Below, in pieces: positions 11,501 to 61,467 of a DNA stretch of 64,000 bases. The notes beneath the pieces were generated by a model, which had not been told where the DNA came from, ran no database searches, and worked only from the letters and a program-made list of their open reading frames with translations. The DNA is taken from contig NC_134677.1 in the NCBI RefSeq assembly GCF_024713945.1, positions 8,950,001 through 9,014,000 on the forward strand, in the 5' to 3' direction. Position numbers and translations under genes: made by a program. Positions within the stretch are counted from its first letter, which is position 1. Every line of letters begins with the position of its first letter. This DNA comes from Dermatophagoides farinae (Eukaryota > Arthropoda > Arachnida > Sarcoptiformes > Pyroglyphidae).

Positions 11501-12989
11501 ATGAATCAATAGGAATGGCCATTCGTGACCAACCGCCAAACATAACATCGCCATCTTCTGTTTTCCATGGTTTCAGATGTGCAACAGCATTTTCAATATC
11601 TTGACGTATTTCGTATGTTGATTCTAGACGAAATAGACGAAAATTTCTTAGCAAATAATCATGTAGAGTGAGGAATTGTATATTCAATTTAGGTAAAGCT
11701 AAACAATAATCGCCAGAATAATATTTAGATGGAACAAGATTCTCATCCCAAATAATTTCTTCACTTGGATATAATGGCATCTGGTTTAATGATTTCATTT
11801 GTGAATCATGCCGTTGATAACGATCAACCAATATTTCTAGCAATATATCTCTTCGAGTTAGATTATGAAAATAATTGCAAATCTTATCGATTTGTTCATT
11901 GTTATCTAAGCCGATTTCCAAATGATGACAAAGCGTGATCAATCGTTCTTCATTAATTAGTGAAAAATATTCCAATAATTTTTTTCGATTATCAATTGAT
12001 GCTACACTGGCCAAGAATAGCGGTCGATATTCATCAATATCGGTGAATAATTTGAAAATTTTTTTCTGTAAATTGGTCAATTTTTCAAAATGTTGTGATG
12101 CAATCTTTGCATCAGTCAATGCTTCGCCAGTGACATCATCGATTTCGAATTTGACATAAAATCGTAATATATCCAATAATTGATTGAATAATCGACCTTC
12201 GTTTGGTCGTTTAGCCAACATTGATAATCGTGCCACAGTGATGACATGTAAATCATCGATGACAGCATTAAAAAATCGTCTTGTTGGTAATAATGATTCA
12301 ATGTCGATCAAAAATTCCAAGAATCGTTCCGAATAACGTATTAAATCCATTTCTTGTCGATTTAGTTTCGGTTTAATTTCCACTGGCGGAATTTCATTTA
12401 GACATTTATAGAAATCATATATAAGATTATAGAGAAATTTTCTTTCAAACATTACTTGTTCACGTTCTTGTTCTGATAAACTTTGATCAGATTTTTCAAT
12501 TTTTTTCCAAAATTTTTTCAATTTCGGCACTTTTTTGAATTCATATTCTAAACGAGCCGATGATAAACAGGACCAAATGGGCATTGAAATATATTTTTGT
12601 ATCGAACATCGTATCAGTTCCACTTCGATACTGTTGAAACATCGAATCAAAAAAACCATCAAGGCAATCTTTTCTCGAGATGTTAGCGAGCATTCTGTAT
12701 TGAGCATCAAACGAGCAGTATGTCGAAAAAATAGTGGAAAATGAGCGGGATTTTGTTCGAACGTTTGCCATGATCCAACACCTTCACGAAATTTTTGATT
12801 AACCATGGCAACAATCGACATGATTAATTCTTTACAATCACAATTTGATTCATCATATTCTGGCCATAATCGGTTTTCAAGATATTGATCAATTTCAAGT
12901 TTACTAACGATGGATGGTGAAAAAGATGATGCAGAAATCTGTTCAACATAAGTATGGCGAATTTGATCCAAAAAATTATCTGGAGTCAT
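8519..12989 (-). CDS. AQR: Intron-binding protein Aquarius (spliceosomal RNA helicase)
   Basis: This is an SF1 (Upf1-like) RNA helicase of the spliceosome. By family knowledge it binds introns upstream of the branch site within the intron-binding complex and links splicing to snoRNP biogenesis. Exons are 9560-12989, 9421-9503 and 8519-9358, with introns of 56 and 62 bp. The donors, acceptors and phases all agree and give 1450 residues; human AQR is of similar size, about 1,485. The N-terminal ~400 residues match the ARM-repeat region. The helicase motifs are Walker [10 protein letters not shown] near residue 790, motif [21 protein letters not shown] near 1030, [19 protein letters not shown], then [33 protein letters not shown] and [12 protein letters not shown] in exon 3. 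The C-terminus is a long Asp/Glu-rich tail with little family similarity, encoded by GAT/GAA repeats. The gene starts 216 bp from TYMS, head to head. Identification is secure. Confidence 0.97.
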
Positions 12990-14251
<1,262 letters not shown>

Positions 14252-17023: not shown

Positions 17024-19678
17024 TTATTTTTTCCTTTTATTAACACCACTACCACCACCACCATGTTTAATATGGTCAACATGATTTTCATTATTGAAAT
17101 TATTCACTTTTCTTGGTTTTTTATGTTTCATTGCCAATGTTGCTGTAATGGCATGTACGGCTGCACGAAAACGGACATTTTTCTTCGTTACAATATACCA
17201 GAATCTTCGTCCAAATATTTCAAGAATTTCAAATAATGATAGAAAACTGAAACCAACATACATTCCAAGAATACCGCCCAATGATGAGAATAATTTCGCC
17301 GTTGTATATGCCTTTTCCTGTCGTACTTCTTGGCAGGTCATTGTTTGAAAATATACGGTCACTTTAGCTAGATTCTGAAAATTCATATCCACTTTACCAC
17401 GATCGAATGTAACACGATCCTCTCGGGTTGGCCATTTTGTCATTGAAACTGTTTTTTCATAATTAATTACCTGACAACGTGGTGGACATTTACATGTGCT
17501 AACTTTCTCTTCAGCTTGAAACATAACCTCTTCAACACAGTTTCTGGTTACTTTACGGCGAGTGTCACAGATTTTCAATGTAGAATTCAATTCCAATTGA
17601 GGTAATTGAGCACTTTGACATTGACAACGTGTATGAATGGTTCGTTGAAGACAAATTTTGAGGCATGCTTGCTGTGAATAGGATGCATTCTGTGTTAGCC
17701 GCCCAACTAATCCGGCTGGCCAATGATCAATACATTCTTCTGGGAATGGTTTCGGTAATCGACTTATGTTGACCATTTTCATTCCAATATAAGTGGATTG
17801 TTTAGGCGCAACAAATATGGCTTCCGAAGCAGCATTACCGATTTCATCGGGATGTTGTATCATAACAATAGCACCAATCTGTGCTGTACCAATAAGATAT
17901 TCACTGATTTCAAGATTTAGTACCAATTCTAAACCATAATTAACGCCAGCAATAGATGTTTCATCTTTGATACGCTCCAGATTGGTTTTACGTAGATTTT
18001 GTGATTTGAAAGTAAAACAATTTCCTTCGGTTGGCGTGAAAAAATGTTCAAAACTATTTGCATGTGCACAATTCGTTGAACGTATCGTACAACGAAGCAC
18101 TAAATCTTCGAATTGATGGCCAATTTGTTTGGAAATTTTTTCATTTGAATTATAAATAACAGCCAACCAATTGGTTAGATTTTCCTGCAGTTCTTTTTCT
18201 TCTCTTTCGGATAATTCAATGTTATCGAAATAGGCTGGTGGTTCTTTTGTTGTTGCTGATTGTTTTTGATTACCCGATTGATTATCCTGTGCATTGGTTG
18301 CATTGTTTTTATCATCAGTTGCTTTAACTTTTCGTTTTGGTCGATCCAATTGAATATCGATTGGTCCAGCAATATCATTAGGTATATCATCTGGTAATGG
18401 TTTTAATGTAGTCGTCGTAGTTGTCGTTGTCGTTATATTCCATTCAACATCACCGTCAACAGTATCGGTTTCATTAAGTGATGATGTATCATTAGTACCA
18501 GAATCACTAAAATTACTGGCTACACCATAAGTATTGATATCGTCCATTCCATCATTTGAATCTGAATTTGATGGTAATTGTGTTGTTGTCACCGTTGTTG
18601 TTCGTATTGATATTTTTGTCGATGTTTTAGGTGTTTTATTCGATGGACCTCGTGGTTTAGTTGTACGAGTAGTAGGTAAAACAGTTGTTGTCGGTTTTCC
18701 TGTTGTTACCGTCATTGGTGCTGGTGTTGTTGTTGGAATCATTGATAAATCAATGGATACCGGCGGTTGAATACCACATAATTTTTCACGTAAATCTCTC
18801 GGTATCATTGAATCTTTAATAACTGAAGAATTGTTCATACAAAGTGCAGAATAACGCACAATATTCATATTGCAAACAGTGACAGCGGGAAATTGTAAAC
18901 GTCGACTATCACGTAATCGTACATCCACTGTAATTGGATATGTATAATATTCGGATACCAATTGCGATATATCACGTAAAGCAAGAAATCCAAAGAAAAA
19001 AAATGAACAAATCCAAAACATTCGTCGTACGAATGATTGTGATAATGCTATATCACGAACACCTGGTACTGATGATTCACCGAATAATCTTATTAGATTT
19101 GATGGTGGCATATAATCGAAACCATTTAGGCCAGAGGCACGCATTTTTCTACGATTATTATTACCACCATTATTGTTATGCAATGTTGATGGTCGTATCC
19201 GATACAATACACGATAAGGAAGATTTCTGGTAATCCTTGGAATTGGTTTCGAAGATGTTTGCTGTTGTTGTTGTTGTTGTTGTTCATCAGCATCCTGATG
19301 ATTGATACCACTATCTTTTGGATCATTTGATGAAGGCGGAAATTGAACACAATCTGTTCGATCATCATTACTATAACGAGTATTGAAATCAGTATTAAAA
19401 TTTGTTCCAAATGTGAATGGATCCATTTCGGATCCTATTCGATCTGGTTCTGATTCCGATGGTTGTTGTTGCTGTTTACGCCAATGGCCATTTTTATTTT
19501 GTGTCGTCATTAACACTTGGCTAAAACCAGGTTTTTTTCTGGTGTGAATCGTGGCAGTTCTTGAATCGGTAACACGATATGATTTTCGTTGCTGTTGTTT
19601 TTCGACATTATTTAAACCATCATAGATCATCATTGTAGAATCACAAAGATCAGATGTAATTTTATCACGTTTAGACAT
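17024..19678 (-). CDS. Degenerin/ENaC-family sodium channel subunit (pickpocket-like)
   Basis: This is a trimeric amiloride-sensitive-type cation channel subunit of the plasma membrane. It has 884 residues in a single coding exon. The start at 19678 (MSKRDKITSD) was chosen because the upstream in-frame extension crosses a 5' UTR intron (19694-19754, donor GTAAGT, acceptor TTTGTCAG). The cytosolic N-terminus is long (about 218 residues). TM1 is at about 219-240 (MFWICSFFFFGFLALRDISQ), followed by the post-TM1 motif QFPAVTVCNMN. A large extracellular loop includes a Thr/Pro-rich insertion of about 100 residues and a furin-type RPKR near residue 445. The Cys-rich domain follows (CLKICLQRTIHTRCQCQS, CKCPPRCQVINYEKTVS). 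TM2 at about 796-821 carries the selectivity-filter region GMYVGFSFLSLFE, with the family GxS. The residue before the conserved N-terminal Gly (family His-Gly) is Pro here (SSVPGVRDIA). The family is certain; the subfamily is not resolved. Confidence 0.93.
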   Translation of the reverse strand: MSKRDKITSDLCDSTMMIYDGLNNVEKQQQRKSYRVTDSRTATIHTRKKPGFSQVLMTTQNKNGHWRKQQQQPSESEPDRIGSEMDPFTFGTNFNTDFNTRYSNDDRTDCVQFPPSSNDPKDSGINHQDADEQQQQQQQQTSSKPIPRITRNLPYRVLYRIRPSTLHNNNGGNNNRRKMRASGLNGFDYMPPSNLIRLFGESSVPGVRDIALSQSFVRRMFWICSFFFFGFLALRDISQLVSEYYTYPITVDVRLRDSRRLQFPAVTVCNMNIVRYSALCMNNSSVIKDSMIPRDLREKLCGIQPPVSIDLSMIPTTTPAPMTVTTGKPTTTVLPTTRTTKPRGPSNKTPKTSTKISIRTTTVTTTQLPSNSDSNDGMDDINTYGVASNFSDSGTNDTSSLNETDTVDGDVEWNITTTTTTTTTLKPLPDDIPNDIAGPIDIQLDRPKRKVKATDDKNNATNAQDNQSGNQKQSATTKEPPAYFDNIELSEREEKELQENLTNWLAVIYNSNEKISKQIGHQFEDLVLRCTIRSTNCAHANSFEHFFTPTEGNCFTFKSQNLRKTNLERIKDETSIAGVNYGLELVLNLEISEYLIGTAQIGAIVMIQHPDEIGNAASEAIFVAPKQSTYIGMKMVNISRLPKPFPEECIDHWPAGLVGRLTQNASYSQQACLKICLQRTIHTRCQCQSAQLPQLELNSTLKICDTRRKVTRNCVEEVMFQAEEKVSTCKCPPRCQVINYEKTVSMTKWPTREDRVTFDRGKVDMNFQNLAKVTVYFQTMTCQEVRQEKAYTTAKLFSSLGGILGMYVGFSFLSLFEILEIFGRRFWYIVTKKNVRFRAAVHAITATLAMKHKKPRKVNNFNNENHVDHIKHGGGGSGVNKRKK
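17036..17041 (-). terminator. AATAAA inside the last codons of the DEG/ENaC gene
   Basis: On the minus strand AATAAA spans the codons for Asn-Lys, 10 nt before the stop codon. A variant ATTAAA lies at 16957-16962, about 60 nt after the stop, and is the safer candidate for the functional signal. Which of the two is used cannot be told from sequence. Confidence 0.3.
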
Positions 19679-19693
19679 GATGATGATGATGAC

Positions 19694-19754
19694 CTGACAA
19701 AGCAACAATGATGATCATCCATATTTTTCACATTGTTTTTAAGGCAATACTTAC
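19694..19754 (-). other. 5' UTR intron of the DEG/ENaC gene
   Basis: A GTAAGT donor (minus strand, 19749-19754) and a TTTGTCAG acceptor ending at 19694 delimit a 61-bp intron, a size typical of this genome. It ends 15 nt before the ATG. This would remove the alternative upstream start. Confidence 0.55.
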
Positions 19755-25984: not shown

Positions 25985-28900
25985 ATGGCCAATTTCAAAT
26001 ATATCGTGTGTTCATTATTTGAATTTTTATTAATACTAACCATTATAGTGAATTTTATTCGAGCTCAAGATATTGATCGTAAGTCGTATTCATAATGATC
26101 ATTTTTGATAAAAATTAATCCAAATTCTCGTTCCACATATGTAGGTGAAAATAGATGTTCATCCGAAGGTTTTTTTCGTGATCCAAATGATTGTGTAAAA
26201 TTTTATCGTTGTACTCGTGATGAAGGTGCAGATTTTTTTCGTGTTTACGAATTTGCTTGTGGTCCTGGAACAGTATTTGATCCAACTATAAGTGTTTGTA
26301 ATCATCCTGGTTCATCACCACCATGTGAGAATAATGGCCAACAACAACAACAACAACTGCCAGAATATAATGCTGCCAATCAACCACAACAACCTGAACA
26401 GTATTCATCACAACCACAACAACAAGTTCCATCCACCTCCTCTGATTCCTATCCTAATCAACAAACATCACCGAATAATTATTATGAACAACCTAGTATT
26501 ATTGCGGCTCCATATCCACAATCTCAACCGTCCGAACAACAACAATCGCCAAATAATGCAGGCTATCCTTCATCACAACAACCCGGATCTACATATAATC
26601 AACAGCCAAATAATTATAATCCAGATGAATGGTCATCTGCTTACGGTCAGCCATATTCATCCGACCAATCGCCAACAAATCAATACCCTGATCATCGTGA
26701 TTACCTACCTGAACAATTTGGTGATCCACCAAGTCAACAAGAACAACAACAACCAGAATCACCAGCACCACAACAACAACAACCAGAATCACCAGCACCA
26801 CAACAACAACAACCGGAATCACCAGCACCACAACAACAACAACAGCACCACAACAACAACAACCGGAATCACCAGCACCACAACAACAACAACCGGAATC
26901 ACCAGCGCCACAACAACAACAACCAGAATCACCAGTACCACAACAACAACTACCAGATCAGCCCGAAGACGATGTTGAACAACAATTAACAAATATGGAT
27001 GAAGATGAAATTACACCCGAAGATGAGGATTGTAATTGTAAACCAGTATCATCTGTGTTCCAATGTAAACAAGAAGGTCGATTTGCTGATCGAAAGAATT
27101 GTAAAAATTTCTATAGATGTACCAATGATGGTGGTGGATTCATTGCCGATCAATTTGAATGTGATATGGGTAGTGCATTCGATGAAGATACGGGAAAATG
27201 TGTTCCAGAATCGCAATCAAAATGCAAATCAGGTTTGTTGAATGTATAATTATATTTTAAAGTATTACTTTTAATAAAAATGAATAATTAGATGCGGGTA
27301 AACCATTACCAAATGGCACAAAATCAAAATCAAAAACATCACCACAAAAAGAAAGCATTTCGGAAGGTGTGTACGATTGAAATGATTATTTGAGTTTTGA
27401 TTTTTTTTGATTGAAAATTGCAGAACCAGAACCAGTAGAAAAATCATCTGATGATCAAACAACTACTGCAGCAACATCTGATGAAACGGAAGCCACTACT
27501 ACTCCAGCCAGTGTCGATGATGATACTAAACCGACGGAACCAAGTGAAGATTCCAGTGAATCAACTGAATCAAGTACAGATTCAACTGAATCAATGGATA
27601 AAACTGAACCTACAACCGAGTCATCAACAAGTGAACAAACAGATGCTACAACTGAATCAAGTGAAAAAACTGAATCTACAGAAGAGCCATCAACCAAACC
27701 GACTACTGAATCGGCTGATAAAACTGAATCAACAACCCCGTCTGCTGATAAAAGTGACGAAACAACAACTCAACCATCTACCGATAAAACAGAGGCAACA
27801 ACCGAACCAAGTGATAAAACTGAATCAACTGAAGAATCCACTGAAAAGACTGAATCGACAACCAAACCCAGTGAAATGAATACGGAAACGACGGAACCAT
27901 CAAGTGATGAAACTGAAGCCACAACCGAACCTTCGAGCGATAAAACCGAATCAACTGAATCTAATGAAACGGAAAGTACGACTACTCCATCTTCAGATGA
28001 TAAATCAACCGAATCTACAACCATGGAACCAGATGCTGAACAGCAATCTACTCCAGAATCAACAGAAAAAACATCAGATTTGATGGAATCACCTGATGAA
28101 CAAAAATCTGAGCAAGCACCGGATGAGGAGGAAGAAAAACCAGAAGATCAAACGGAACAAGCACCAGAATCTGAAGAATCTCCACAAGAACCGCAGCAAC
28201 CAGAACAAGAAGCTGCTCAGGAACAACAACCAGAAGAAATGCCCGAATCTGAGGACTCCCCTATCGAACAAGAATCACAAGATGTTCCAGCTGATGAACA
28301 AATAGAACCAAGAGCTCAATCACCAACCACAAAAACACCGGCCAATGACGATGATTTACAACAGCCTATCGAACAAGAATCGGAAACCAATTATCCAAAT
28401 GAACCACAATATCCACAAACAAGTAACGATCCATCATACATGGATCGTGTTCAACAACAACAACCAATCGAACAATCAATAACTGATGATAATTCTCTTG
28501 GTGGAAATATAAATCCACAATATAATCAACCTGTTCAACAACAACCACAACAGCCATTACCACAGGAAAATGAAAATTTCAATGAAAATGATCCATATAG
28601 TGGTGGTGAGGCAGCAAATCAATTCTATCCACAGCCACCATCATCTGATGGAATTCAGTGCACGAAAGATGGATTTTTCCGCCATCCAAATAATTGTGCG
28701 GCATTCTATCGTTGTCATGAAGGTACAAGATTCGATTTCCAATGTGGACCGGGAACTTATTTCGATGAACGTTATAGTGTTTGTAATTGGCCTAATCAAG
28801 CCTATCCACCTTGTCCAAGTGATGGTGGTCAAGGAGATGCACCACCCACTGATCAAGATCAATCACAACAATTAGGTCAATTTCCACCACAATCCGATCC

Positions 28901-30509
28901 GAATCAATATTCTTCAGATAGTCCTTTTCCATATCCACCACAAGAACCAACTCAACAACAAAAAGAAGAACAACCATCACAAAATGATTATCCAAATCAA
29001 GCCGAACCAATCGAACAACAGAAACAGGAAATACAAAATGATTATCCACCCCCAGAAAATTATGGTGGTCAACAACAACCTCAACAGCAACAGCAGCCTG
29101 AACAATTTCAGCCAATGATACAACCACCTACCAAAAATCCATATCCACAGGAACAACAACAGCAACAGCAGCCTGAACAATTTCAGCCTATGATTCAACC
29201 ACCTACCAAAAATCCATATCCACAGGAACAACAACAGCAACAGCAGCCTGAACAATTTCAGCCTATGATTCAACCACCTACCAAAAATCCATATCCACAG
29301 GAACAACAATCTCAACCTCAAGAACAGCCTGAACAATTTCAGCCAATGATACAACCACCTACCAAAAATCCATATCCACAGGAACAACAACAGCAACAGC
29401 AGCCTGAACAATTTCAGCCAATGATACAACCACCTACCAAAAATCCATATCCACAGGAACAACAACAGCAACAGCAGCCTGAACAATTTCAGCCTATGAT
29501 TCAACCACCTACCAAAAATCCATATCCACAGGAACAACAATTTCAACCTCAAGAACAGTCATTACCACCACCACCACCGCCACCACCACAGCAACCGATA
29601 AAAAGTCCCAGTCAGCCACAACAACCTTCTCCAGTCAAAAGTCCGGCTAAAAGTCCTTCGCAACCAGTAAAAAGCCCAAATCAATCTCAAGCACCTGCTC
29701 CTGTTAAAAGTCCAAAACCATCCCCTCTTAAATCTGCTCCGTTGAAAGCAACACCCAAAGCTCAAGCTAAATCGCCCACTAAATCCCAAAAAAGATCACC
29801 AGCTAAATCGCCTGCAAAACCACAAGGTAAAACGCCTCCAAAGTCTCAAGCTCCTAAAAAATCTCCCGTAAAATCTGCCCCTTTGAAACAAGCACGACCA
29901 CCAAAACCAAAGTCACCAGCTAAACAGCCGGCTAAACCGAAAAGCCCACCAAAATCTCCCGCCAAATCAGCGCCTATAAAACAATCTCCAAAACCAAAAT
30001 CACCAGCTAAAAGTCCCAAAAGTAGTCCATTGAAACAGAATCCGAAAAAGAATTCTCCATCTCCTAAGTCTCAACAATCTAGACCACCACAAAAGCCAAA
30101 ATCTCAAGCATCACCGCCAAAGGCAAAGCCTAAACCACAGCCAAAATCACCGATTTCCCCTGCCAAAAAAGCACGTTTACAAAATGAGAAACCAAAATCC
30201 GAACAACAAATATCTCAGCAACGTAAACGACAAGTATCACCTGCCCGAGTTTTACCATTAAAGCCATTTGCAAAGCCAAAACCAAATCAATTGCGAAGAC
30301 AGCCAAAACAAATATATAATCAACCAACAATGTTCCAATGTCCAACTGCCAATGGATTTTTCGCCGATCCAAGTGATTGTTCAATGTTTTATCGATGCGC
30401 CGATTATCGACGATTCCATTTTGCCTGTCCTCAAGGCCTATTTTATGATGCATCATTAGAAAGCTGTAATTGGCCCAATAAAATTCAACCACCGTGTCGT
30501 AATCGATAA
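25985..30509 (+). CDS. Secreted peritrophin-type protein: four CBM14 chitin-binding domains, mucin-like and repeat regions
   Basis: This is probably a structural component of the peritrophic matrix or cuticle that binds chitin. Exons are 25985-26078 (signal peptide MANFKYIVCSLFEFLLILTI), 26145-27232, 27292-27366 and 27424-30509, with GT-AG ends. In order it has CBM14-1 (CSSEGFFRDPNDCVKFYRC), a Q/P region with 10-residue QPESPAPQQQ repeats, CBM14-2 (CKQEGRFADRKNCKNFYRC), a Thr/Glu/Ser-rich acidic mucin-like segment, CBM14-3 (CTKDGFFRHPNNCAAFYRC), and six copies of PEQFQPMIQPPTKNPYPQE. A Lys-rich KSP/AKSP segment and CBM14-4 (CPTANGFFADPSDCSMFYRC) close the protein. All four domains keep six cysteines. 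The reading frame is broken in the QPESPAPQQQ array near 26840: one unit is 10 bp short, so the frame that enters ends at 26989 while all downstream exons splice correctly in the shifted frame. An assembly error or a null allele is possible. With the frame intact the protein would be about 1,450 residues. Confidence 0.88.
26750..26956 (+). repeat. 30-bp tandem repeat encoding QPESPAPQQQ
   Basis: About seven units of 30 bp (CAACCAGAATCACCAGCACC plus CACAACAACA) lie inside exon 2 of the chitin-binding protein. Units differ only by CCA/CCG, GCA/GTA and GCA/GCG changes, which points to recent expansion. The unit at about 26838-26850 lacks the 10 bp CGGAATCACC, so the array changes frame there. 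Confidence 0.85.
29097..29540 (+). repeat. Six-copy 75-81-bp tandem repeat with higher-order structure
   Basis: Six copies encode PEQFQPMIQPPTKNPYPQE, separated by Gln runs or by an (S/F)QPQEQ spacer after copies 3 and 6. Silent differences define two versions: A (GCCAATGATACAA) and B (GCCTATGATTCAA). Their order is A-B-B-spacer-A-A-B-spacer. The array is therefore best read as a duplicated triplet. Confidence 0.85.
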
Positions 30510-30819: not shown

Positions 30820-33800
30820 TTACAAAGTAACATCATCCATTGTAACAGATGGTTCCGTAGTGATCATAGAATTCGAAGAATTTTCAGTTGAATCTTCTGA
30901 ATTTGTTGACATCGTTGTTGTGAATATGACCATATTCTCTGGTATACTAGTGATGGTCGTTGTTATCATCGATGACATAGTCATGTTATCGTCATTGTCT
31001 AAACTGCTCATCGTTGTCAACATGTTTATCTTTGGCTCTTCTGCTGCTCCTTTTTGATTGATTTTCATTTTCATCTGCTCTTGTTCAGCCATCAACATCA
31101 TTTTGATAAATTCTTTACGATCCATTGTTTTGAGCATATGCGCTTTCGATACATAATTCGGTGGATAATGCGGACGCATTGATGATGGCGAAGAACCACC
31201 AGATGATGGTGATGATGAATACGGATCACCTTTAACCAGCTTTATTTGTGGTGGCCTAAATCCTTTCTGTCCAGGACTGATTAAATTTGTTTTCATTTTT
31301 TCCGATACACATAATTCCTTTAATAAAGAATGAATTTAACAAAAAAAAAAAAAAATTGATTAGATTTTCTTCAAAGATTTGATTGAAAATACATACCTGT
31401 TTATATTCAATATCAAATCCTCGTCCATTACCAAATGCATCGGATGTGAATTTGATCTGAGCAACTTTATGTCCATTATGCATTTCGAATGGTATCGTAT
31501 CTGTTTCACAGTGGAATATATTTCATCATTAATATCAAAGAATATATTTTCTTTTTCTCAGAAAACACTTACATTCATTTTGTTCATCCATTTTATTGCC
31601 ACATAATTTTTGTGTATCCACTTGTAACCAATCTTTTTCACATTTAACCGTTCCTCCATGGCTATCCGACGATGATAATTCAATATCCAAATCTCGAATT
31701 CTAAGTTTCACATTACAATATTCATGACCAATAGCTTGGATTCTATACACACATTTTGTATAGTCACCATATGGGGCTGGATAATTAGGACTTTTAATAT
31801 GGCCACGATAATTTCGTACGGATATATCACAAACAGTGGGCATAGTCAATGTTGGTTCTATGATATATGGTATATGGTAGTGGTGGACAAAACATAAAAT
31901 AAACAACAATCATTAATTCAATGAACCATGTGTGAAATAAAATCAAACTCACTTTGTGTTGGAGTAGGTTTGTCACAATCAGTATCAATCTGTTTAACAT
32001 CCAATCGAAAATCACCGCGAGTATTTAATGATTTACTCGATATAAAATGTATAACTTTCTCATATTCATTCGGCATAAAATGATAACGGCCTATTTGAAA
32101 TTGAAAAGTTCAAATTAGATTTTTTTTTTTTTTGATAAGATCATCATAAGATTTTTTTTATCATACGTTCATGACCAACAGGGAATGCTCCACATATTCT
32201 ACTAGAATCAATTTCCAAATATTCTCGTTCACATTTCATTGCTTCATTCAATTGAAACATTTGAAATTTTAAATCGATTGCGCATACATTATCGTTAGCT
32301 TTACGGATCGTATAACGGCAACGAGTGATGGTAGAATCATCACGTGGACTTTCAATCTGAAAATTCATTTCATTTTCAATCAGATCACAATATGGATCAT
32401 ATGATGTTTCGGATGATGAATATGGCTTTTGTTGCTGTTGTTCTGGTCTATTTGTATCAGCATCCATCGGATGATTATGTTGTTGTTCAATCATTGGTAT
32501 TCGAAACTGTTTCATCTCATATGTTTGCATTTTGTATTCATTTGGTTTATTATTATTGTTGTTGTTGTCATTATAATGATGATGATGATGATTATCGTAT
32601 AATTGTTGTTCATCGATTTGTTGTACAATATCGCTGACTTGTTTAAATCGACTTTTTATTGATTGTTGTTGTCCTTTTATCGGAAAATGATTATCTGAAT
32701 TTTCATTTTGTCTTTGCATTGGCCGTGATGATGGATGATGATGACCATGATCAACATTAGTAGCACATTCAACTTGTCGTACTTTAATTTCAAATGTATC
32801 ATCATCGATTGGACCAATATCCATTAGATTGACAAATAGATAAAGTTCTGGTCGTTGAAACCAGAATCTTTTTGTAGTTGTTTCATGAATATGTCCACAG
32901 ATTTTTTCACCATCAACCGATAGATATTGATGACCACAGCTACTATCATTGAGATTATATTTCATAAACATTATGTCCAATTGACAAACGTTTGTTTTTG
33001 CTTTTCGTATATGTAGATGACATATGGCACCACCACCATTCATTCTTGTCATTTGTAGATCTGTACTTTTTAATTCGAAAAAGATTTTATCCACAAACGT
33101 TTGTTCACATAGTTTCTGTGTATTAGGTGGATCATATTTTTGTTGTTGTTGTTGTTGTGGTTGTTGTGTCATTGGTGCCGTTGTCACCGTTATATAATCA
33201 TGTCCATCATCTAAATGACGTTGTTGTGATGGGCTAGATGTTGTCGTCATCATCATCATTGACAATGGCTGTATTTTTGGTTTATCTTCATTAATCACTG
33301 TTATATTTCGACTATAATATCGTATTGGAATTTTACGTTGCTGTTCTTCACGTTGCTGTGTTGGAAATGTTGTTGGATTTGGTTTATTTGAATCTTCATA
33401 TATAACATGTGGTTCAACTTCCATTGTAGCTTTGTTTCTGGTATCGAATTCAGAGATTATTTCATCATCATCATAATCGAATGGATTTTTAGTCATTATC
33501 GGTTTTCGATTTGGTGATTTTAATTTTTTCGGATTAGTTTTCGAACCAGAATAATCAGTTATGGATTTCTGCTCATCGGTTGTTGTTTTTGAATGCTTTT
33601 GATGTGGCATAGCTGGCCTGCCGGGAATGCAATCCACTTGTTCTAATGCCAAATGAAATCCATTGGCCGTTTGTTGTTGATTCGTATGGAAATGTAATAA
33701 AAGTTTTTCCTGTAAAAATGGTATCTCTTCTGAATGCGAAAAAAATGAAATATTTAAATGAAAATCTTTTTGATTAATGATGAAAATAAACTTACTAGAT

Positions 33801-36800
33801 GTATATCGATCCAAAATACCACAAAAACGTGTACTGAAAATATCCAGATAATCACCACGACAATTACCATCTTCGCCAACTACATTGAAATATGTGAATG
33901 TAACTTTTAATCGGCAAACATTGGCACTATTTTTCCGTATCAGATATGAACAATCTAAACCATCAAAATAACGATATGGATAACCAGGTGATTTGATTTC
34001 AAACATTTTATCATCAAATGTTTGATCACAATAAATGGCTTCATTGTGGACAATCATCGGTGTTGGTATTGGATGCAATGTTTGCGGATTTTCTACAGCA
34101 ATAGATTTGGTTGCCGGTTGAATATGAGGTATCTGATTCGATATTGATGGCGATGGTGTTTGTGTATCTAAACACGGCAATTGTATATAACTTGCTCGAA
34201 ATCCTTTGAATGATGGTTTGACCATAGCTCCACGACTGCTGGTCACCATACGTATGGTTAAATCATCTTTTCGCTTATTCATCAAAATCATTGAAACATC
34301 TTTCAATTGATGGCCACAATAACGTATACCATTGATTTCTAAATAATCCTGATTACATTCAGGTGAATAATCAAAATCAAATTCAACAAAACGTAATTGA
34401 ACCATACAATTATCTGGTAATGGTGTTATACGATATGTACAATTAACATTTGGTGGATAAAAATTTGGATAATCATATGATTGAATATTGCCAGTCACTT
34501 CAGTCACACAAATCTCACAAATCGATGGTAATGATGGTAAAAATATAAACTTATTATTATTATTATCAGCTGATGAACTTGAAATCGGTAATTGTTGTCG
34601 ATTTTGTTTTACATCATAATTTTTTGGTTCCAAAATCAATGTATCACAATCAATTTGACGTGCTTGTATCATAAATCCTTTACGTGGCCGAAATAAAACA
34701 CTACGAAAATAAATTCGTTTTTCCGGTTCATAAAATGGTATCTGAATTATTGATTCGGGTCGATTCGTATTACAATATTTAACATTATCAATAAGTAAAT
34801 AATCTTCTGTACATTTTGTCGATGGTTCAATATCGAAATCGGTAAAATATAATTCCAGTTTACAAAAACGACTATGGCGCCGTTGTATGGTGTAAACACA
34901 GCTGAGGCTAGGCAAATAATATTGTGGATAATTGGGACTTTCAAATTCAAAATATGTCGAACCAAATGTTTGTTGACATATTTGGTTAGCATGATAGATT
35001 TGGTATGGTGAAAATGGATCATCTTTCATTATTAATGATGATGACGATGATGGTGGTTTTATTATACGTTTAGCACCATGATCATTGTGGCCGGTTTGTG
35101 GACATTCATTTTGACGAATTTTAAGAAAAAATCCACGACCACTAATCAATGGATCAGCAAAAAAGCTTATCGTAAATTCATTATCATAAAATGGAAATAG
35201 CCGCACACTATCTTTCGCTATCGATCCACATTGTTTAATACCGTTGAAGCTTACATAATCCTTATTACAATCAGTACTTGATTGTAGATCAAATTCGATG
35301 AAATGAACTTCAAGAAAACAGACATTCACACCGGGTGCTTTAAATTTCACTATGCGATAATCACAATATGAATTTGATGGATATGGTGATGGATATAGTG
35401 GACTTTGTATATCGAATGATGAACTCATTAATATTCGGCTACAATGATTCTGTTGTTGTTGTGGTTTTTGTTGCTTAACCGGTAATTTATTCGGTTGATT
35501 CAATAATGATGAACATTCTATTTGACGAACATATAGTCTAAACCCTTTATCAAATGATGTACGAAAAGAATCTGAATGAAAATGAATAAAAAATGTTTCA
35601 TTCCTACGAAATGAATAGATTCGTGATTGTGTTTCGGTCATTTTTCCACAAAATTGTTCCTTATTATCAAAATCAAGAAAATCCGATTTAAGACAATTTT
35701 TCTCAAAATCATATGGTTGTAATTCGAATGAATCAAAATTGATTTCAATTTTACAAACATCCAAGCTATACGGTACGATCATGAAAAGACAATCTAGATC
35801 TGGTGGATAATTATCAGGAAAGTTGGGACTATCAATAAAAAATTCTTTTTGTCGAAATGTTTTTGAACAAAGAAGACTACTGCTACTGCTGCTTGGATTT
35901 TGCAAATATTTCCACTCGGGAATTGTTGGATCAAATTCCGATGTTTGATGAACGAAATTTTCTTGCTGCTGTAATAATTGTGTATCATTTGTTGGTTGTA
36001 TATAATGTTGTTGTTGTTCGAATTTATATTGTTCTAAACTTTGTAGACCTTCATTCGGTTCTTCATGATGATGATGATGATGATGATGATCATAATGTTC
36101 ACGAATAATACGATCACCTTGACATTCAAGCTGTTCGGTATGTATCCGATAACCTTTACGTTCATTCGTTGAATCTGTATGAAAATTTATAATCATTTCT
36201 GGTTTATCAAACACATAGATACGACTTGTTTCTTGATTTAGTGTTCCACACAGACGTACGGCACTGCCAATCTCCATATAATCATATTGACAATCTTGGC
36301 TGGCTTCTAGATCGAACATTTTGAAATGCATTTCTAGATAGCAAACTTTATCTGAATATTTTTTAATTGTAAAATGGCAATCTAGATATTTTTTAAAAAA
36401 TAGAAAACAACAAATTCAAATTTTTATCAAATGAAAAAAACAAAAATATTTCCCATACTTTGATTATCCTTATAATGTCCATCAATTGTATCGCTAATAA
36501 GATCAAATTTTTTATCTCGATATATTTTTACACATGGTTCCGTATGAATACTGTTTTCATCATGCATCATTTTCGACAATGATTCTGCTGGATTCATCAT
36601 GACAACATTATCTTCCATTTGTTTGGTACATGGTATTTGTGTATAATTCAATAAGAACCCTTGTCCATTTTCTGTGCTGTCACTTTTGAATAGAAATCTT
36701 ATATAACCATCTGGATTGAATGGAATTATTTTCCGTTCATTTCGTAATGAATGGCCACAATAACGTTCATTTTGAATTTCGAAAAAATCACCACTACAAT

Positions 36801-39800
36801 CACGAGTATTTTGTAGATCAAAATCAATAAAATTCATTTCAATACTACAATAATGGCCATGTGGATTCCGTTCAATAGTATAGGCACAAAGTAAATCGTT
36901 TGGATATGGGTCCGGATATTTCAATGTACCCAGCTTTCCTTCACGTTCATGCCATAAAATACTGCATTTTTGTTGTCGACCTTGATTACCACCACGAATA
37001 TTACCCGATGCTGGTGCAGGTGTTTCAATTGGCATAAATGCATTTCGACAATCATTTATCTGTCGTATTTTGATATGAAAACCAGGCCCATTCACTTGGC
37101 TGTCAGTTTGAAATGAGATCGATTTGACAGCCGTATCAAAATGGAAAATATTTCTTGAACCATTCGGTAGACGGCCACAGAAATTTTCACCATCAATTTC
37201 AAAAAAATCATATGCACATCCTTCAGATTCTTCAATATCAAAATGAATAAATTTCAATTCTAAGCCGCATACATTTTCCGATTTCCTGATAACATAATGT
37301 ACACAATCAAGATTATTACTATAATTTTTTGGATAATTAGCACTTTTAATCTCAAATTCCATTTCAGTATGTCGTTTTTCACAATAACTTGAACTCGGTA
37401 AACTTGATGCCAACATTTCCACTGGATCCACTATTGAATGATCATTATTGTTATTATTGGTATTAGAATTCTCGTATTTCGATTTCTCCAATTTTTTTGC
37501 CGTCAATTTATCACAGGTATCAAATAACGGTTTATATTTAATGTTGAAACCGCTCGAATGTACAACTCTATCAAGCACAAGTCTGTTGTTTGTGTAGATA
37601 TTTGAAAATTAAAACTAATTATTATAATAACAGAATGATAAGAATATTATACTTACCTAAAAACAAAATCTTTTTCATAATTCGGATCAATATCAACCAC
37701 ATCCATACGATTATTCCAATCACGGTGGCAATAACGTTTCCGGTTATTAAATTCAAGATAATTATCTACGCAGCTATTACGATTGGCTGATAATTGTGCA
37801 AATTCTTTTTCCACTGCTTGTCTTTGTTCAGCATCTTTATGTTTCTGTTCACTACGCATATCGGTCACATCAAAATCATTGAAATGTAATTCAACACTGC
37901 ATACAGTTGGATTAAGCGGTGTAATGCGATAAACACAATTAACACTTTGAGATGGATCGCCAAAACTGGTTAAATTTCCTTCATTTGACACAAGCCAAAA
38001 TTCACATTTATTTGTCGATGAAGTTGTTGCTGTTTTTGTATTCGGGACATCAGCTACAACATTACCTACTAATCCGGAATCATTGATCAATTATTCTTAT
38101 ATCATCACTTTTATTCACTGATTTAAAATTATTTTTATTTCATTTGTTGATCCGAAAATATAATTAAACATCTTGTGGCCACAAGATAATTAGAAAATTG
38201 ATTAAATTTCTTTCTCTCTGTTTTTTTGTTGTGAAAATTATCGATACAATCGGATTTTCCTCTCTCACTCTCATTCTCTCGCTAATGATTCAAACATAAC
38301 AAGCTTGATTTATTGTTTAGTATAACTAGAAAATTGTCAATTCCAAACATGAAGAAAAAAAAATTTAATGTTAAATGAATATCTTTCAATTCACCAATTA
38401 ACAATCATTTCAATCTTTCATCAAAAAAAAAAAAAAAATTTAAATATTCAACACACATATTACCATTGACCGACTTTATTATTATAAGAAGATGGAACAG
38501 AAAAAAAATTACGGAATTCAAAGAAAATATCCTTCAAAGTTGTTATCATATATATTGTGGTCAAATGACAATAACAATGACAACAACAACAACAAAAGTA
38601 AAAGTAAAAGTCCAACCAAATAACCTCGACAATGAAAATTACTAAATGCAAAAAAAAGTGGCTGATTTTCAGTATATAATACTGTAATCAAAGTCCAAGT
38701 TAAACTATTCAAACTAATTAGCATGATGATATCAAGTAATCAAGTAACTTTAAGATTCAGATGACTGCTATAAAATGTCTATATATATTATAAAAGTGTG
38801 TGGTTAATACTTGCATGCATGCATGCATCTTGTAATCTTCAAAATGTCTTTTCTATTTTCTTTTTTTTTTTGCTGTTACTTGTTAATTTTTTAACATTTT
38901 TTTTTGTTTCTATTCCATCTAATACATCCCTGGATCTGTATAATTCATTCATTTATATTCAGGTGTAATTAGTTAATTACGTAACAAAATAAAATGAAAT
39001 CTATTTGGACACATACAGAGAGCGAGAGATAGCCGATATGGTATATTGTCAAAGCATCCATCCATATGTTCGTGTTTGTTAATGGATAAACAAAAAAAAA
39101 AAAAAGATGTGTCAAATGGTCAGTCCTTTTTTTTCTAATGACAATTAATGGAAACTTTTATACATTTGGATAATTAAATTCGTTTGTTTTGATTTTCATT
39201 TCATTCATTTTATATTGTACACATGTATGCATTGTAGAAAAGCAGAAAACACACACACACACACACATCAATTCATCAAAATGTTTTGAATGAAAACAAA
39301 AAACAATGGTCTGTGGCTATAACATGATTATCGCATTAATTTTTTTTTTTTTTTGGCCAAAAAACAAAAATTGTCTCTAATTTGAGTTTTGTTGAATTAG
39401 AAAAAAAATCAAATCAAATCTATAATGATTCTGATCAACATTTCTTACATAATACTTGGTGACAAATTTTTTTTTTTTACTTTTTGACAAATTATTTTAT
39501 TACTGAAACAAATTGTATGGTTCGTGCGTGTCCATACGGTATTTATTTTTTATATTCATTCATTATTTCATTTTTTTTCACATACAAAACACGTGCACAC
39601 ACATACACATACACTATTTTGACATTGACATTTGATTGGTGTGATGAATGAATGATGATGATGATGATGATGATGACATAAATCTTTCATATATATAGAA
39701 AAATGAATTTCTTAATGAATTAAATTAAAGAAAAAAAAGTAAAATATTTCTACAACTTTTATGTAATCATCATAGTCATAATGAATATTATTACCTATTG

Positions 39801-55107: not shown

Positions 55108-58100
55108 TCAAAAGAATGAAAGTTCCGTTTGGCAATTATCGGCTGTATTATTGAATGATTCGGATAACATTGTCGTCGTCGTTGTCGTTGTTGCTGCTGT
55201 TGTTGTTGTTGTTGTTATTGGTAAATGATTAGTGGCCATCAAATTTATTGATGGTGGTGATGTAGATGCAGTAGATCCACAGCCACAACCACCACTACCA
55301 GATGATAATGATTCACTGATCGATATTGAACGATTTCGATCATAACTATTTATCTGTATGGGTTTACTATTTGTAGTGGACAATGTTGGACTTGCCAATT
55401 GACTACTGGCGCCATTTGAACCATGTGATATAGCTGGACTATTTAGTACTTCATTGAGCGTATTAACAAATACATTATGACTTTCAGATATTGAATTTGT
55501 ATGCTGTAATCGTAATGCTTTGAATGAATGCAATGATACTTGTGCCTATTATTAATAAATTCAAAAAAAGAAAAGAAAAAAAATAATTTAAGGATTATGA
55601 TTAAAACAAACATGATATGATATATATAGACGAATAGAATAGAATAGAATATTCAGGAATATGTCTTGAAATGATCACAAACACACAACCATCATGTGTG
55701 GTTCATTGTACATTTGATTTGAAATATGATTTCATTTGGCACAAGAGAAAATACTTCCTTGACGATGATTATATCTTTTCTATGGTTAGAAAAAAAATAA
55801 CCACGAAAAACAAACAATCATTATAAAGAAAAAAAAAGAATAACAACGACCTGAGAAATAATGTAGTTCATCAACCGACTTGTATTTATATCATTCTGCG
55901 GTTTATTGTTGTAAAAAACAACGGTTATATAATCATCATCATTTGGAAAACTCCCAACCATTGAATGTATTAGAATCTAAGAATAACTTATAGATCATCA
56001 ACAGGAAAAAAGGTCATTAAATTCATTAATTTTTTATGGAATACCAAACAAACAAACAAAATTCCATTGAAATTATGTTCTATTACCACTACATACGATT
56101 ATGAAATTTTCATCAGATAAATAAATACAACCGACACACACACAATCGATATTTAGAAGTTGAAAATTTTCAAAAACAAAAAAAACGATGTAAATGACAA
56201 ACAATCAACCAGTGAAAACCAAAAAATCACCACAGAACAAACAAAACAAAACAAAAACAACACCACATTTAATCTAATCTCAATATTTAATTCAATACAC
56301 ACACACACGAATCTGGTAAATGAGTCAAATTCATTCAAATCAGTTATGTCCATTATATGTGTGTGTACTGTGTACAGCCATTGTCGGCATTATAATCATC
56401 ATCATCATCATTATTAATCAGCAATCAATGTGATATGTCAATGATTTCTCTCTTTTTTTCCACACCGTTTATCTCAAGTGTTGTAGATCACACAAACACA
56501 TGCAACAAAAAAAAAATCTAAACTTTACTAAATCTTATTATTATTGGAAATCTAATACAGAAATGTATGTGTATTTGTACAGCCAAAAAAAAAAACATTG
56601 TACATCTTATCATTATCATCATCATCATCATCACTTTGTGTGTGTGATTTGACAATTGAGACTCTAAATGATGATATGTGTGACAGATGTGAGAAAAATA
56701 TAAACTTGTCAAATACAAATATATGCAGATCAAATCATCATGATCGTAAACTGACTGAAAAAAATTTAACACTTTCGCTTGAACATTTCTGTTTATTTTG
56801 TTGTTGTTGCCAACGAAATCTCTTTATGTATAATGTAAAGTTTTTTTTTGGTTCGTAAGAATTCCGATTACAGATTCTCACAGAGCTTTTTTGTTATATT
56901 CAATGCAATGTACAAGATTCCTATGCAGAATAAATGGTACATTGCATTGAATGTAATGTAAGATGCTGGAATTAAATAACAATTAAAAATTAATGAAAAT
57001 AAACATCAAAAATGAATGAATGACAAAACTAAATCAAATGACAACGATAAATACTTTATATCAAGGCCATCATCAATAGAATGTAGTATTCTGACAATAT
57101 TGCACATATACAAAAATACAAAAAATAAAATATTCATGGTCATGGTCATATCTAATAACAAACATTTCGATGTATGATAGATAGTGTCGAACCAAATCGA
57201 TCGACTGATCGATTGATTGATTATACGTAATATATTTTATTTTATTTATATAAATACTCAGTTTTCATGCGTGCGACAATTTTTTTTCCAAGAAACAAGA
57301 ATATGAATTACCCCTACCCCACTATCAGCAGCAGAAACCGAATGAAAAAGAAAATTCAATTCAATATTATGGCCTAGCCTATACGTTTAATTTGATTTGA
57401 TCGATAATCGAGTAATCTATTAAATTGATTGGCAGACCACTCCCAACAGAATTTCTTTCTTTGAAGAGAAAAAAAAATTCTTTTTTTTTGTTTACAAGTT
57501 TCCATCATTGAATGAAACAAAAAAATATTCCATTTAATTATTTATTTTTCGCAGAGACAAAGAATTTTAATGATTTTTTTTTTTGAAAAAACAACAGCTA
57601 TTTCCATACAGAATAAAATGTAAACAACAATCTGAAAAAAAGGCTGAAACAATGAAAGATGATGATGATGATGATGATGACAAGTTGAAAATATCATTAT
57701 TACTTGAAAGTGAAAAAAAGAAAACATCAAACAAACACAAACAATGTTTGTTTATAAAATACAAAAATTAGCTAACCATCAAACAAGCTATGTCTGAAAT
57801 TCAAAATCAAATCTGTTCCAACAATAATGATGATGATAAAGTTTTATTTAAATGATCGACAAAAAAAACGATCACTGCCAAATGAAATCCATCATCAATT
57901 AACAATTGTGATAAATCAATCATTCAAAACTGTGTGTGAAAAAACAAAATTGATCCAATCAATGATAAAATCAAACACATAACAATCAAATATGTCTCAA
58001 TTGATCAATTTCTTTTTTTAGAATTCAATGGATAAAAATGATTATTATTAATATATCGCCTACCTGATCACTCCATCGTTGTCCATATTTCCATTCGGTT

Positions 58101-61100
58101 ACATAATGTTCTGTATTACATTGTAATGCATTATATGGTACGGTTGTGCCAACCTGAAAACAGGTGATAAAAAACAAATTAAAAATAACTACAATAAAAA
58201 AGATAATTGAATTTGGAAAAAAAAATTTACAACAAAAAACAAAAAAAAATCCAAATGCTTAACAACAGGTTTATTATTATTGCATTATCTTTTTTCTGTC
58301 ATTTTGATTGATTATGATCATTATTATCGTTGTGGTTGATTGTTTTTTTTTCATTATTTTTAAACTTTTGAACTTTCACACACAGTTTTGGCATAATTTA
58401 TTCTTTATAATACGTATCAATAACAAGTTTTTCTCTCTTATTTTTCCGACTAATTGATTATAAAATCATCTAGATGAAAAGTAAGTCCGTTGTCAATATT
58501 ATTTAAAGAATAAAATGTACATTTTTATTTCTTTAATTTTTCCTTATTACGTCTGTCGTGTGTGTGTGTGTGTGTGTGTGTGTGTTTAACGATTACGATA
58601 TTTATTCCAAACTTGGCTATCTTCATCACCATCATCATCATCATCATGTGATCATAGATGTTGTCATTACCGTCGTCGTTTATTGGCATTGGTTGTTTAG
58701 CTGGCTGGCTGTTGCCAAGAAACAAACCTCGTTTTTGAAAATTATCGGCATTATGATGATGTTGATGATAGCAAAACAAATGCAATGATGATGAAATCGA
58801 TATTTCAAATTCAAATCAAACAACAACAACAACAAATAATAATTTCAATTCAAAATGAGATAGAATTATTTTTTTTTCATTGATAAAATCGATTCTCATA
58901 ATTATCGACAAAAAAAACATTGATGTTTTAGATAAAAATGCATTCTCATCATCATTATCTGGTGCAATGATCGATCTATAACAATGATCATTGATCATTA
59001 ACAACGACAATGAGAATTTTATAATGGATCAAATTCTAAGAAAATATCTTTATGGTTAATTTACATTTTATAAATAAATAAATTCCACACTGCTGAAAAT
59101 AGATAACAACACCATCTAAAGATAACCGAGGCCAAAGTCATCTTCGATATATCAATATAATTTACACTTATTCATTCATGACAAATCAAGGTTTTTTTGT
59201 GCGGGCAAAAAAAAATAAAATAACTGTTGGCACGTGCATAATCATGATGATGATGATGATGACGCAGATGACTGAAAATAAAGAATTTATATATCGCTAA
59301 TCAAGCAAAAATTCTTGGCGAATGTTGTTGCTAAATGTGACAACGTTCTTTCCATCATTATCATCTTTTTATACTGAATATATCTCAAGTTCATTTTAGT
59401 TCAGTTCTATAATAAAGTTAATAATAATCACAAATCAGAGAAATTTGTAGCGAAAAAAAAATTCTGTTCAATGTAAAGCGAAAAATTAATGATAGGCACA
59501 AATTTCGCCTGTCATTTTTTTTACTTTCTTTTTTTTCTCTTTTTTTAAATTCTCATTTATTGGTATAGGAATTGTTATTTTTACTGAATAACATGAATGA
59601 ATGAGCCTGTCATTCTGTTTTTTTTTCATCAACGATTCTTGTTGATTTGATGAATGATTGATTGGATTCACAAGTATACAACCATTGACAACAATTCCGT
59701 TAAAAATCGTCAATCTAATCAGATGTGTGTGTGTGTGTGTGTGATGTCAATCGACTTAAGCTACAAATTGGGAAAAATTTGAATTTGGAAAAATAAAAAA
59801 TTCCAATCAAACAAACAATAATCATCTGATTTAAACAAACAAACAGACAGAAAAACCTGGTTACGTCACGTAATATTCATATGGTTCATAAACTTTGAAA
59901 CCAAAAAGTGAAGAAAAAATATCAGATTTCTTTTTTCTGAACCATCAACCAGAATCGACCAGAAACAACATCACAAATACATACAACCAACAAAACCATT
60001 TCATTCCATAACACGTGTATGCGTGTTGCAGTCGTCGTTTTTTGGGTTGAATTTTTGTTTCGAAAGCAAAAAAAAGTGTGCCACAATCTCTTCTCACTAT
60101 AGTTTTGTATGTGTGTGTATGAAAACGAACAAAAAAAAGACCTTGAGAATTTTGTCAGAGATTCAGTCCTTCAAATACACGCACACACACACACACACTA
60201 AATTCACTTGTATATATGATGTGCAAGTTAATGTATGAAGCTATACTGCCAAAGTGACTGAGCATTGAAAATTGAAACACTAAAATGAAATCGATAAGTT
60301 CTGAACAAAAAAAAAGAGCGAAGAACTGTGTATGCGTATGTGTATATATAGTGAAGATTTACAAGACGAAAAATTGAATGAAATAACATCAGAAACAACA
60401 ACAATAATAAAAATAAAAATAAAAAATCTTTCATGTATCCGTTCCAGCAATAGCAATAGCAACAACAACAACAACAACAACAAATAGAAAAAAACATGGC
60501 CATCATGTGACCTTAAATATGGTTCCTGCGTGTTTGGAAATATTGAAGCTTTCATATTCGAATAAAAAAAAGAATTGGATTGAATGATGATGATGATGAT
60601 GATGGAACGGTAAAGTTTTTTTTCTCAATAAAAATAATATGGTCCTGGAACATTCCAAATGATTATTTCTGATGTATGTGTAAAAAAGAGAGAGAGAGAG
60701 AGAGAGGGGGAATTGATTGGAAAATTTCAAATCGTATCACAAACACATACCTTGGAAAGAGCTTTTCGCACGACAATTTCATTATTAAAAGGCAAAAGAT
60801 TACGTTCTTTAGCACGATGTAATTTATTATTAACACGACAATAATGATCACCAGCAACAATGGTTAATGGTACAAGTTCAACATGAGCAATTTCTGAATC
60901 TGGTACCATTTGTATGGCATCATTGCCAACAATAACGACAACATCACCATCACCAACATAAATACCCCATTGTGAGAATAATGTACGATCAAATTCAATT
61001 ATATCACCAGGTTCTGGATGTAATTCAGATGCTGGACGAAATGAATGTAGATCAATTTTTAATGTATTCGGTGGTACTTCAATTGCAATCGTTTGATTCT

Positions 61101-61467
61101 GATCAATTATAATTAATTCATTTGGTTGCTGTGAATGTAGACAATTTTCCAGGTCAAGACTTGTCGATTTGATTGCCGAATTTAATATAGGATTCGATGA
61201 TGATAATTCTGTTGATGCTGCTGCTGCTGCTGCTGCTGTTGTTGTAGATGGACATGAAGAAAAACTTCTTAATGTTTTTACACGTGGTGTTATTGTATCA
61301 GATGTTCCGGTTGTCGCTGTAGTTGTTGTAACCATTTTTATTATTGAATTTGGTGATGTTGATACTTTCGTTTCATCATGATGATAATCAGATTTTGTTG
61401 AATTTGTCGTCACTGTAGACGTATTAGACAAATTTATTATCGGTGTTGATAGCTTCATTCTCATCAT
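55108..61467 (-). CDS. LRAT/PLAAT-domain protein lacking the catalytic residues
   Basis: It has an NlpC/P60-like thiol-hydrolase fold of the LRAT family (phospholipase A/acyltransferase PLAAT, H-REV107). Exons are 60751-61467, 58064-58153 and 55108-55545, all phase 0, with introns of about 2.5 and 2.6 kb; the product has 414 residues. Residues 1-150 are Thr/Ser/Ala-rich and low in complexity. The domain runs from about 151 to 270: PEPGDIIEFDRTLFSQWGIY, VGDGDVVVIVG, HYCRVNNK, VVRKALSKVGTTVPYNALQ, CNTEHYVTEWKYGQRWSDQ. It parallels H-REV107 (GDLIEIFRP, HWAIYVGDGYVVH, VNNK, NCEHFVNELRYG, RSDQ). The three catalytic positions differ: HWA is QWG (Gln166), VVH is VVV (Val178), and NCEHF is NTEHY (Thr253). 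A Cys sits two residues earlier (Cys251). The C-terminal membrane helix of PLAATs is replaced by a Ser/Thr-rich tail. A non-enzymatic, LRATD-like role is inferred. Confidence 0.85.
55546..58063 (-). other. Intron 2 of the LRAT-domain gene
   Basis: This is a 2.5-kb intron between exons 2 and 3. Apart from CA, GAT and homopolymer runs, it holds a long hairpin at 56893-56957. No other coding exon is evident. Confidence 0.65.
56893..56957. repeat. Intronic hairpin, 16-bp perfect stem extendable to about 21 bp
   Basis: ATTCAATGCAATGTAC (56898-56913) and GTACATTGCATTGAAT (56937-56952) are perfect complements around a 23-nt loop. Five more pairs outside, two of them G-U on the plus strand, lengthen the stem to about 21 bp. 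Size and loop fit a pre-miRNA; it could also be a remnant of a small inverted-repeat element. It lies in an intron transcribed from the minus strand. Confidence 0.7.
58154..60750 (-). other. Intron 1 of the LRAT-domain gene
   Basis: A 2.6-kb intron. It holds a GT run (58558-58585), GAT/ATC tracts, CA runs near 60181, a CAA run near 60461 and a GA run near 60688. I see no exon or RNA gene. Confidence 0.65.
58558..58585. repeat. (GT)14 microsatellite
   Basis: The longest pure GT run noticed in the window, inside intron 1 of the LRAT-domain gene. Confidence 0.9.

Follow-up and report, generated by a model that had tools for sequence, protein, structure and literature searches.

A minus-strand gene at positions 55108-61467 of the window (the whole stretch of Dermatophagoides farinae DNA that was analysed, 64,000 nucleotides) raises the question of what a protein does that keeps the LRAT/PLAAT domain and its motifs and carries other residues at the positions where the enzymes of this family have their catalytic His and Cys.

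Gene structure and domain architecture

The gene was modelled as three exons with GT-AG borders, all joined in phase 0, encoding a protein of 414 aa with 55108 as the last base of the stop codon.

60751..61467, minus strand: exon 1, residues 1-239, disordered Ser/Thr-rich N-terminus, then the LRAT domain's first half (ATG immediately after a stop, open frame, GT donor at 60750, Pfam LRAT match)
58064..58153, minus strand: exon 2, residues 240-269, with Tyr246, Cys251, the NTEHYV block, YG and SDQ (AG acceptor and GT donor, phase 0, aligned to PLAAT2/3)
55108..55545, minus strand: exon 3, residues 270-414 and the stop codon, mostly a Ser/Thr/Gly/Asn-rich tail without a membrane helix (AG acceptor, phase 0, hydropathy, composition)

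This model was chosen among 16 splice-site combinations, each of which was translated. Four produced frames of 409-416 aa, the remaining 12 terminating at 247-302 aa, and SDQ was retained in two of the long frames, namely the 414-aa model and a 416-aa variant in which the exon 1 donor lies six bases later and two residues are added. When aligned to PLAATs the 414-aa model contained no extra residues; the 416-aa variant is a possible alternative. The coordinates and residue numbers given in the original prediction match this translated model. Elsewhere in the window, frames were observed matching Aquarius, an intron-binding protein, together with its AAA helicase part (8522-13010, minus strand), thymidylate synthase (13203-13712, plus), cytochrome P450 (15340-16104, plus), an amiloride-sensitive sodium channel (ASC; 17027-19714, minus) and chitin-binding peritrophin-A (CBM_14; 26099-30506, plus), together with long CUB-domain frames (32147-37608, minus).

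A Pfam search identified residues 151-264 as LRAT (PF04970, E 1.6e-19) with a score of 70.8 bits, exceeding the curated cut-off of 24.3 bits, whilst a second match, to CbiK, was insignificant (0.12). All nine matches to solved structures were PLAAT/HRASLS chains (including one LRAT chimera), and the best solved relative was human HRASLS2/PLAAT2 (4dpz, E 5.7e-14). Identity to human PLAAT2 was 36-41% depending on the alignment, and none of 300 shuffles reached the score of the mite protein against it. The motifs predicted to be retained (GDIIE, WGIYVGDGDVV, VNNK, NTEHYV, YG and SDQ) were all found. Composition was consistent with the predicted addition of a disordered N-terminus, S/T/A/G/P/N/Q making up 60% of residues 1-115, and reaching 70% in residues 311-414. 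The C-terminal membrane helix typical of PLAAT enzymes (all but HRASLS5) was not found by hydropathy, the mean over 19 residues being at most 0.38 for every segment starting after residue 265, and its predicted absence was thus confirmed. Since HRASLS5 is also described as lacking this helix (PMC4624172), its absence from the mite protein is nothing special.

Residues at the catalytic positions

The catalytic triad of HRASLS3 is described as Cys113-His23-His35, with His23 as the base (PMC4624172). Gap-free motif alignment of PLAAT with the mite protein placed HWAIYVGDGYVVH against QWGIYVGDGDVVV and NCEHFV against NTEHYV, and the following codons are at issue.

60970..60972, minus strand: Gln166, replacing the base His (alignments)
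58112..58114, minus strand: Thr253, replacing the nucleophile Cys (alignments)
60934..60936, minus strand: Val178, third triad position in three alignments, contradicted by one and a gap in another
60910..60912, minus strand: Gln186, alternative third triad position (MAFFT alignment including the contig C9 relative described below)
58118..58120, minus strand: Cys251, two positions ahead of the catalytic one (alignments)

All three triad residues had been predicted to be replaced, by Gln166, Val178 and Thr253. In every PLAAT alignment made, Gln166 lay opposite the base His and Thr253 opposite the nucleophile Cys, so that this part of the claim stood and the mite protein carries neither the catalytic Cys nor the base His of a PLAAT enzyme. 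The assignment of Val178 depended on the alignment, and inclusion of the C9 relative in the MAFFT alignment opened an insertion that moved the second His opposite Gln186. This third position is the weakest element of the claimed loss and is treated as unsettled, because its assignment varies by alignment and bacterial relatives often have Gln there; human HRASLS1 is reported to have Asn at it (PMC4624172). The loss spans two exons approximately 2.6 kb apart, as had been claimed, with Gln166 in exon 1, Thr253 in exon 2 and an intron 1 of 2,597 bases between them. As base and nucleophile are both gone, no thiol chemistry is expected of the mite protein, and a single C113S change has been reported to render PLAAT3 lipase-dead (PMC9338259). 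Tyr246 is retained, as is His255 in the NxEH block.

To place these replacements among more distant relatives, a bacterial and archaeal genome collection was scanned with two short patterns, in which the first position could be H or Q and the nucleophile C or T. The 97 matching stretches gave 61 relatives, a biased set in that each locus was required to match one of the two patterns. The nucleophile was Cys in 61/61 and the residue seven positions before it (mite Tyr246) was Tyr in 61/61, whilst the first His was His in all 56 alignable relatives (five uncovered). At the third position pairwise alignment gave Q 35, gap 7, H 6, A 5, E 2 and D 1 with five uncovered, and multiple alignment gave Q 36, A 12, H 4, E 2, D 1 and L 1; the multiple alignment and column counts covered 56 loci, five of the 61 having been left out for want of an aligned N-terminal part. 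Fifteen columns were widely shared, that is, common to human PLAAT2, PLAAT3 and at least 80% of these 56 relatives. The mite protein kept 11 of them, had a similar residue at one (Phe to Tyr) and lost three (the His, the Cys and one Asn), so that 12 of the 13 columns other than the catalytic pair were identical or similar. The chance that both catalytic columns fall among three random losses of 15 is 6/210 (approximately 3%), or 12/210 (approximately 6%) if the similar column is also counted as lost. In this pattern-biased bacterial set, the concentration of losses on the catalytic columns is suggestive, not strong.

Two other accounts of the catalytic loss can be set against these data. The gene might be a former enzyme in decay without a selected function, as loss of both catalytic residues would suggest, but the intact frame and splice sites, the conservation of the shared columns outside the catalytic pair and the identity to PLAAT2 that persists make this unlikely. 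The protein might alternatively be an active enzyme with a rearranged site, in which Cys251 or Thr253 serves as nucleophile with another base. Tyr246, invariant in the bacterial relatives, and His255 are still present, Cys251 lies near the catalytic position in sequence and Gln186 could act as third residue if the MAFFT alignment with the C9 relative is followed. Such an enzyme is nevertheless highly improbable, as the base His is replaced by Gln166 with no other His at an aligned catalytic position, and Cys251 lies opposite an acidic residue (Asp or Glu) two positions N-terminal to the PLAAT2/3 Cys. The new catalytic arrangement through Cys251 that had been suggested found no support: with Gln at the first His no general base is evident for it, and Cys251 as a substitute nucleophile was rejected on that account.

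LRAT-family genes in the genome and the last intron

The group-2 allergen gene of this genome agrees with Der f 2 (chain 1ahk) at 119/120 residues, in keeping with D. farinae as the host. Searches of the D. farinae genome with PF04970 found only this gene, and with human PLAAT2 only its exon 1. When the window protein itself was used as query, a further gene was found on contig C9 (E 3.5e-4), with 40% identity over 60 residues around NxEHYVT-WKYG.

C9:2612990-2610855, minus strand: divergent LRAT-like protein encoded by a single frame of 711 aa that begins MGVPVSK

The C9 protein contains NSEHYVTLWKYG, which places Ser at the nucleophile position, and its start presumably suits N-myristoylation. 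The reverse search with this protein returned exon 2 of the window gene (E 0.012) and one weaker place (0.39); Pfam gave no match in it, and a PDB search with it gave no LRAT-family match. None of 300 shuffles reached the score of its C-terminal part against the window protein, nor against PLAAT2, whereas 125/300 did so against LRATD2 and 253/300 against LRATD1, both LRATD sequences here and below being provisional. For its first residues the corresponding counts were 4/300 (LRATD2) and 129/300 (LRATD1), and a possible link of the C9 protein to LRATD is a lead only. The C9 relative and the window protein are thus alike in the 60-residue stretch and in lacking the nucleophile Cys, and differ in the Ser at this position, the MGVPVSK start and the lack of a Pfam match. 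A Cys-bearing LRAT-family gene was not found in D. farinae by the profile, PLAAT2, window-protein or C9-protein searches, and the absence of an active PLAAT is provisional, because exon-by-exon searches could miss a diverged or split enzyme. It is conceivable, though we put it forward tentatively, that the LRAT/PLAAT family survives in D. farinae only in non-catalytic form, as the window protein and a possibly myristoylated Ser-bearing relative, and that its lasting role in such arthropods is binding and not lipid chemistry. An animal with no detectable Cys-bearing LRAT-family protein would provide a clean setting in which to study the fold without the chemistry.

The last intron of human LRAT is reported at c.540/541, leaving 153 coding bases for the final exon (PMC6033202), and therefore lies in phase 0 after codon 180, 19 residues after the catalytic Cys161 (PMC2656461). 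Mite intron 2 is in phase 0 after residue 269, 16 residues after Thr253. In LRAT the intron probably follows SDK, and in the mite protein it follows SDQ. If these intron positions correspond, the disordered tail of the mite protein would sit at an ancient junction, in the place of LRAT's membrane segment. A last intron in such an apparently LRAT-like place makes alternative last exons conceivable, and intron 2 contains two hydrophobic candidate segments in phase 0, from which another transcript might supply the membrane helix or, with other exons, the missing residues. We consider this very unlikely. Hydrophobic candidates in intron 2 are equally common in phase 1 (two) and phase 0 (two), and an alternative membrane exon was rejected on the ground that they are no more frequent in the correct phase. 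When the whole window was scanned for the motifs in six frames, six matches appeared, two of them the gene's own and four isolated and distant (1571, 17283, 28347 and 42276), and the PLAAT2 genome search returned no part of the window beyond exon 1.

A probable binding protein and its known counterparts

We consider it probable, at roughly 70%, that the product of the gene is an intact LRAT/PLAAT-fold protein without catalytic function, which works through binding. Gene structure, fold family, the loss of His and Cys and the lack of a hydrophobic C-terminal helix were read from the sequence; its absence of activity, its binding role and the kind of partner are inferred. The pseudoenzyme reading of the original prediction is the best supported, although loss of the nucleophile is not unique to this protein, since LRATD2 is described as lacking the Cys (PMC7140883) and the C9 relative has Ser. 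What is unusual in the mite protein is that the base His is gone as well. Nor are hydroxyl forms universally taken as inactive, because the legend of one review refers to a 'catalytic Cys/Ser' in human LRAT-like proteins (PMC5133064).

In the binding protein proposed here, the fold would have been retained and the base-nucleophile pair for thiol acyl chemistry lost. The LRAT core may recognise either a partner protein or a lipid of the membrane, and sites for kinases or binding partners may lie in the flexible tails rich in Ser/Thr. The protein would then serve as an adaptor or regulator, perhaps at membranes, by analogy with the role proposed for human LRATD2. LRATD2 is reported to be vesicle-associated, to co-precipitate, once cross-linked, with AP1 gamma 1 and Sec23A/B, and to support ER-to-Golgi transport of EGFR (PMC8536394), and solved permuted NlpC/P60 proteins are described as having a hydrophobic S1 pocket (PMC3142127); it is because of this precedent and this pocket that lipid or protein binding is proposed. 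The loss of His and Cys could be recent or private to the D. farinae genome. If Gln166 and Thr253 prove common to other mites, a non-catalytic role would be old and selected. In the literature collection searched, no paper named both Dermatophagoides farinae and LRAT, and the LRAT domain was absent among the matches listed for pseudoenzymes.

Human LRATD1 and LRATD2 (FAM84A/B) are little-understood LRAT-domain proteins, the latter linked to cancer, and LRATD1 carries Ser at the nucleophile position. With PLAAT/HRASLS (H-REV107) the mite protein shares domain order, motifs and the Tyr, Glu-His and YG/SDQ residues, and it differs in its long disordered tails and in lacking the base His, the nucleophile Cys and the C-terminal membrane helix. 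The score of the mite domain and tail was 163 against PLAAT2, 101 against LRATD2 and 52 against LRATD1, each above 300/300 shuffles; for the tail alone, shuffles reached the score in 17/300 (LRATD2), 293/300 (LRATD1) and 250/300 (C9 protein). The mite protein thus appears nearest to PLAAT by alignment score, yet lacks the defining features of a PLAAT enzyme. Like LRATD1 and LRATD2 it has extended ends and an LRAT domain without the nucleophile Cys. However, LRATD2 is reported to keep both His (PMC7140883), whereas the first His of the mite protein is Gln166, and the Gly2 at which LRATD1/2 are reported to be N-myristoylated (PMC8689648) is absent from its MMRMK start. On the question of whether the loss is shared with LRATD1/2, then, that of the Cys is common to LRATD2 and that of the base His is not. 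With the first His and Gly2 absent and a higher domain score against PLAAT2, membership of LRATD1/2 was rejected, and the LRATD analogy may not be orthology. By description only, the mite protein can also be likened to C. elegans EGL-26, a developmental regulator reported to have the same permuted NlpC/P60 domain (PMC3142127). Non-catalytic LRAT relatives are already known in humans, and the mite variant loses the base His too.
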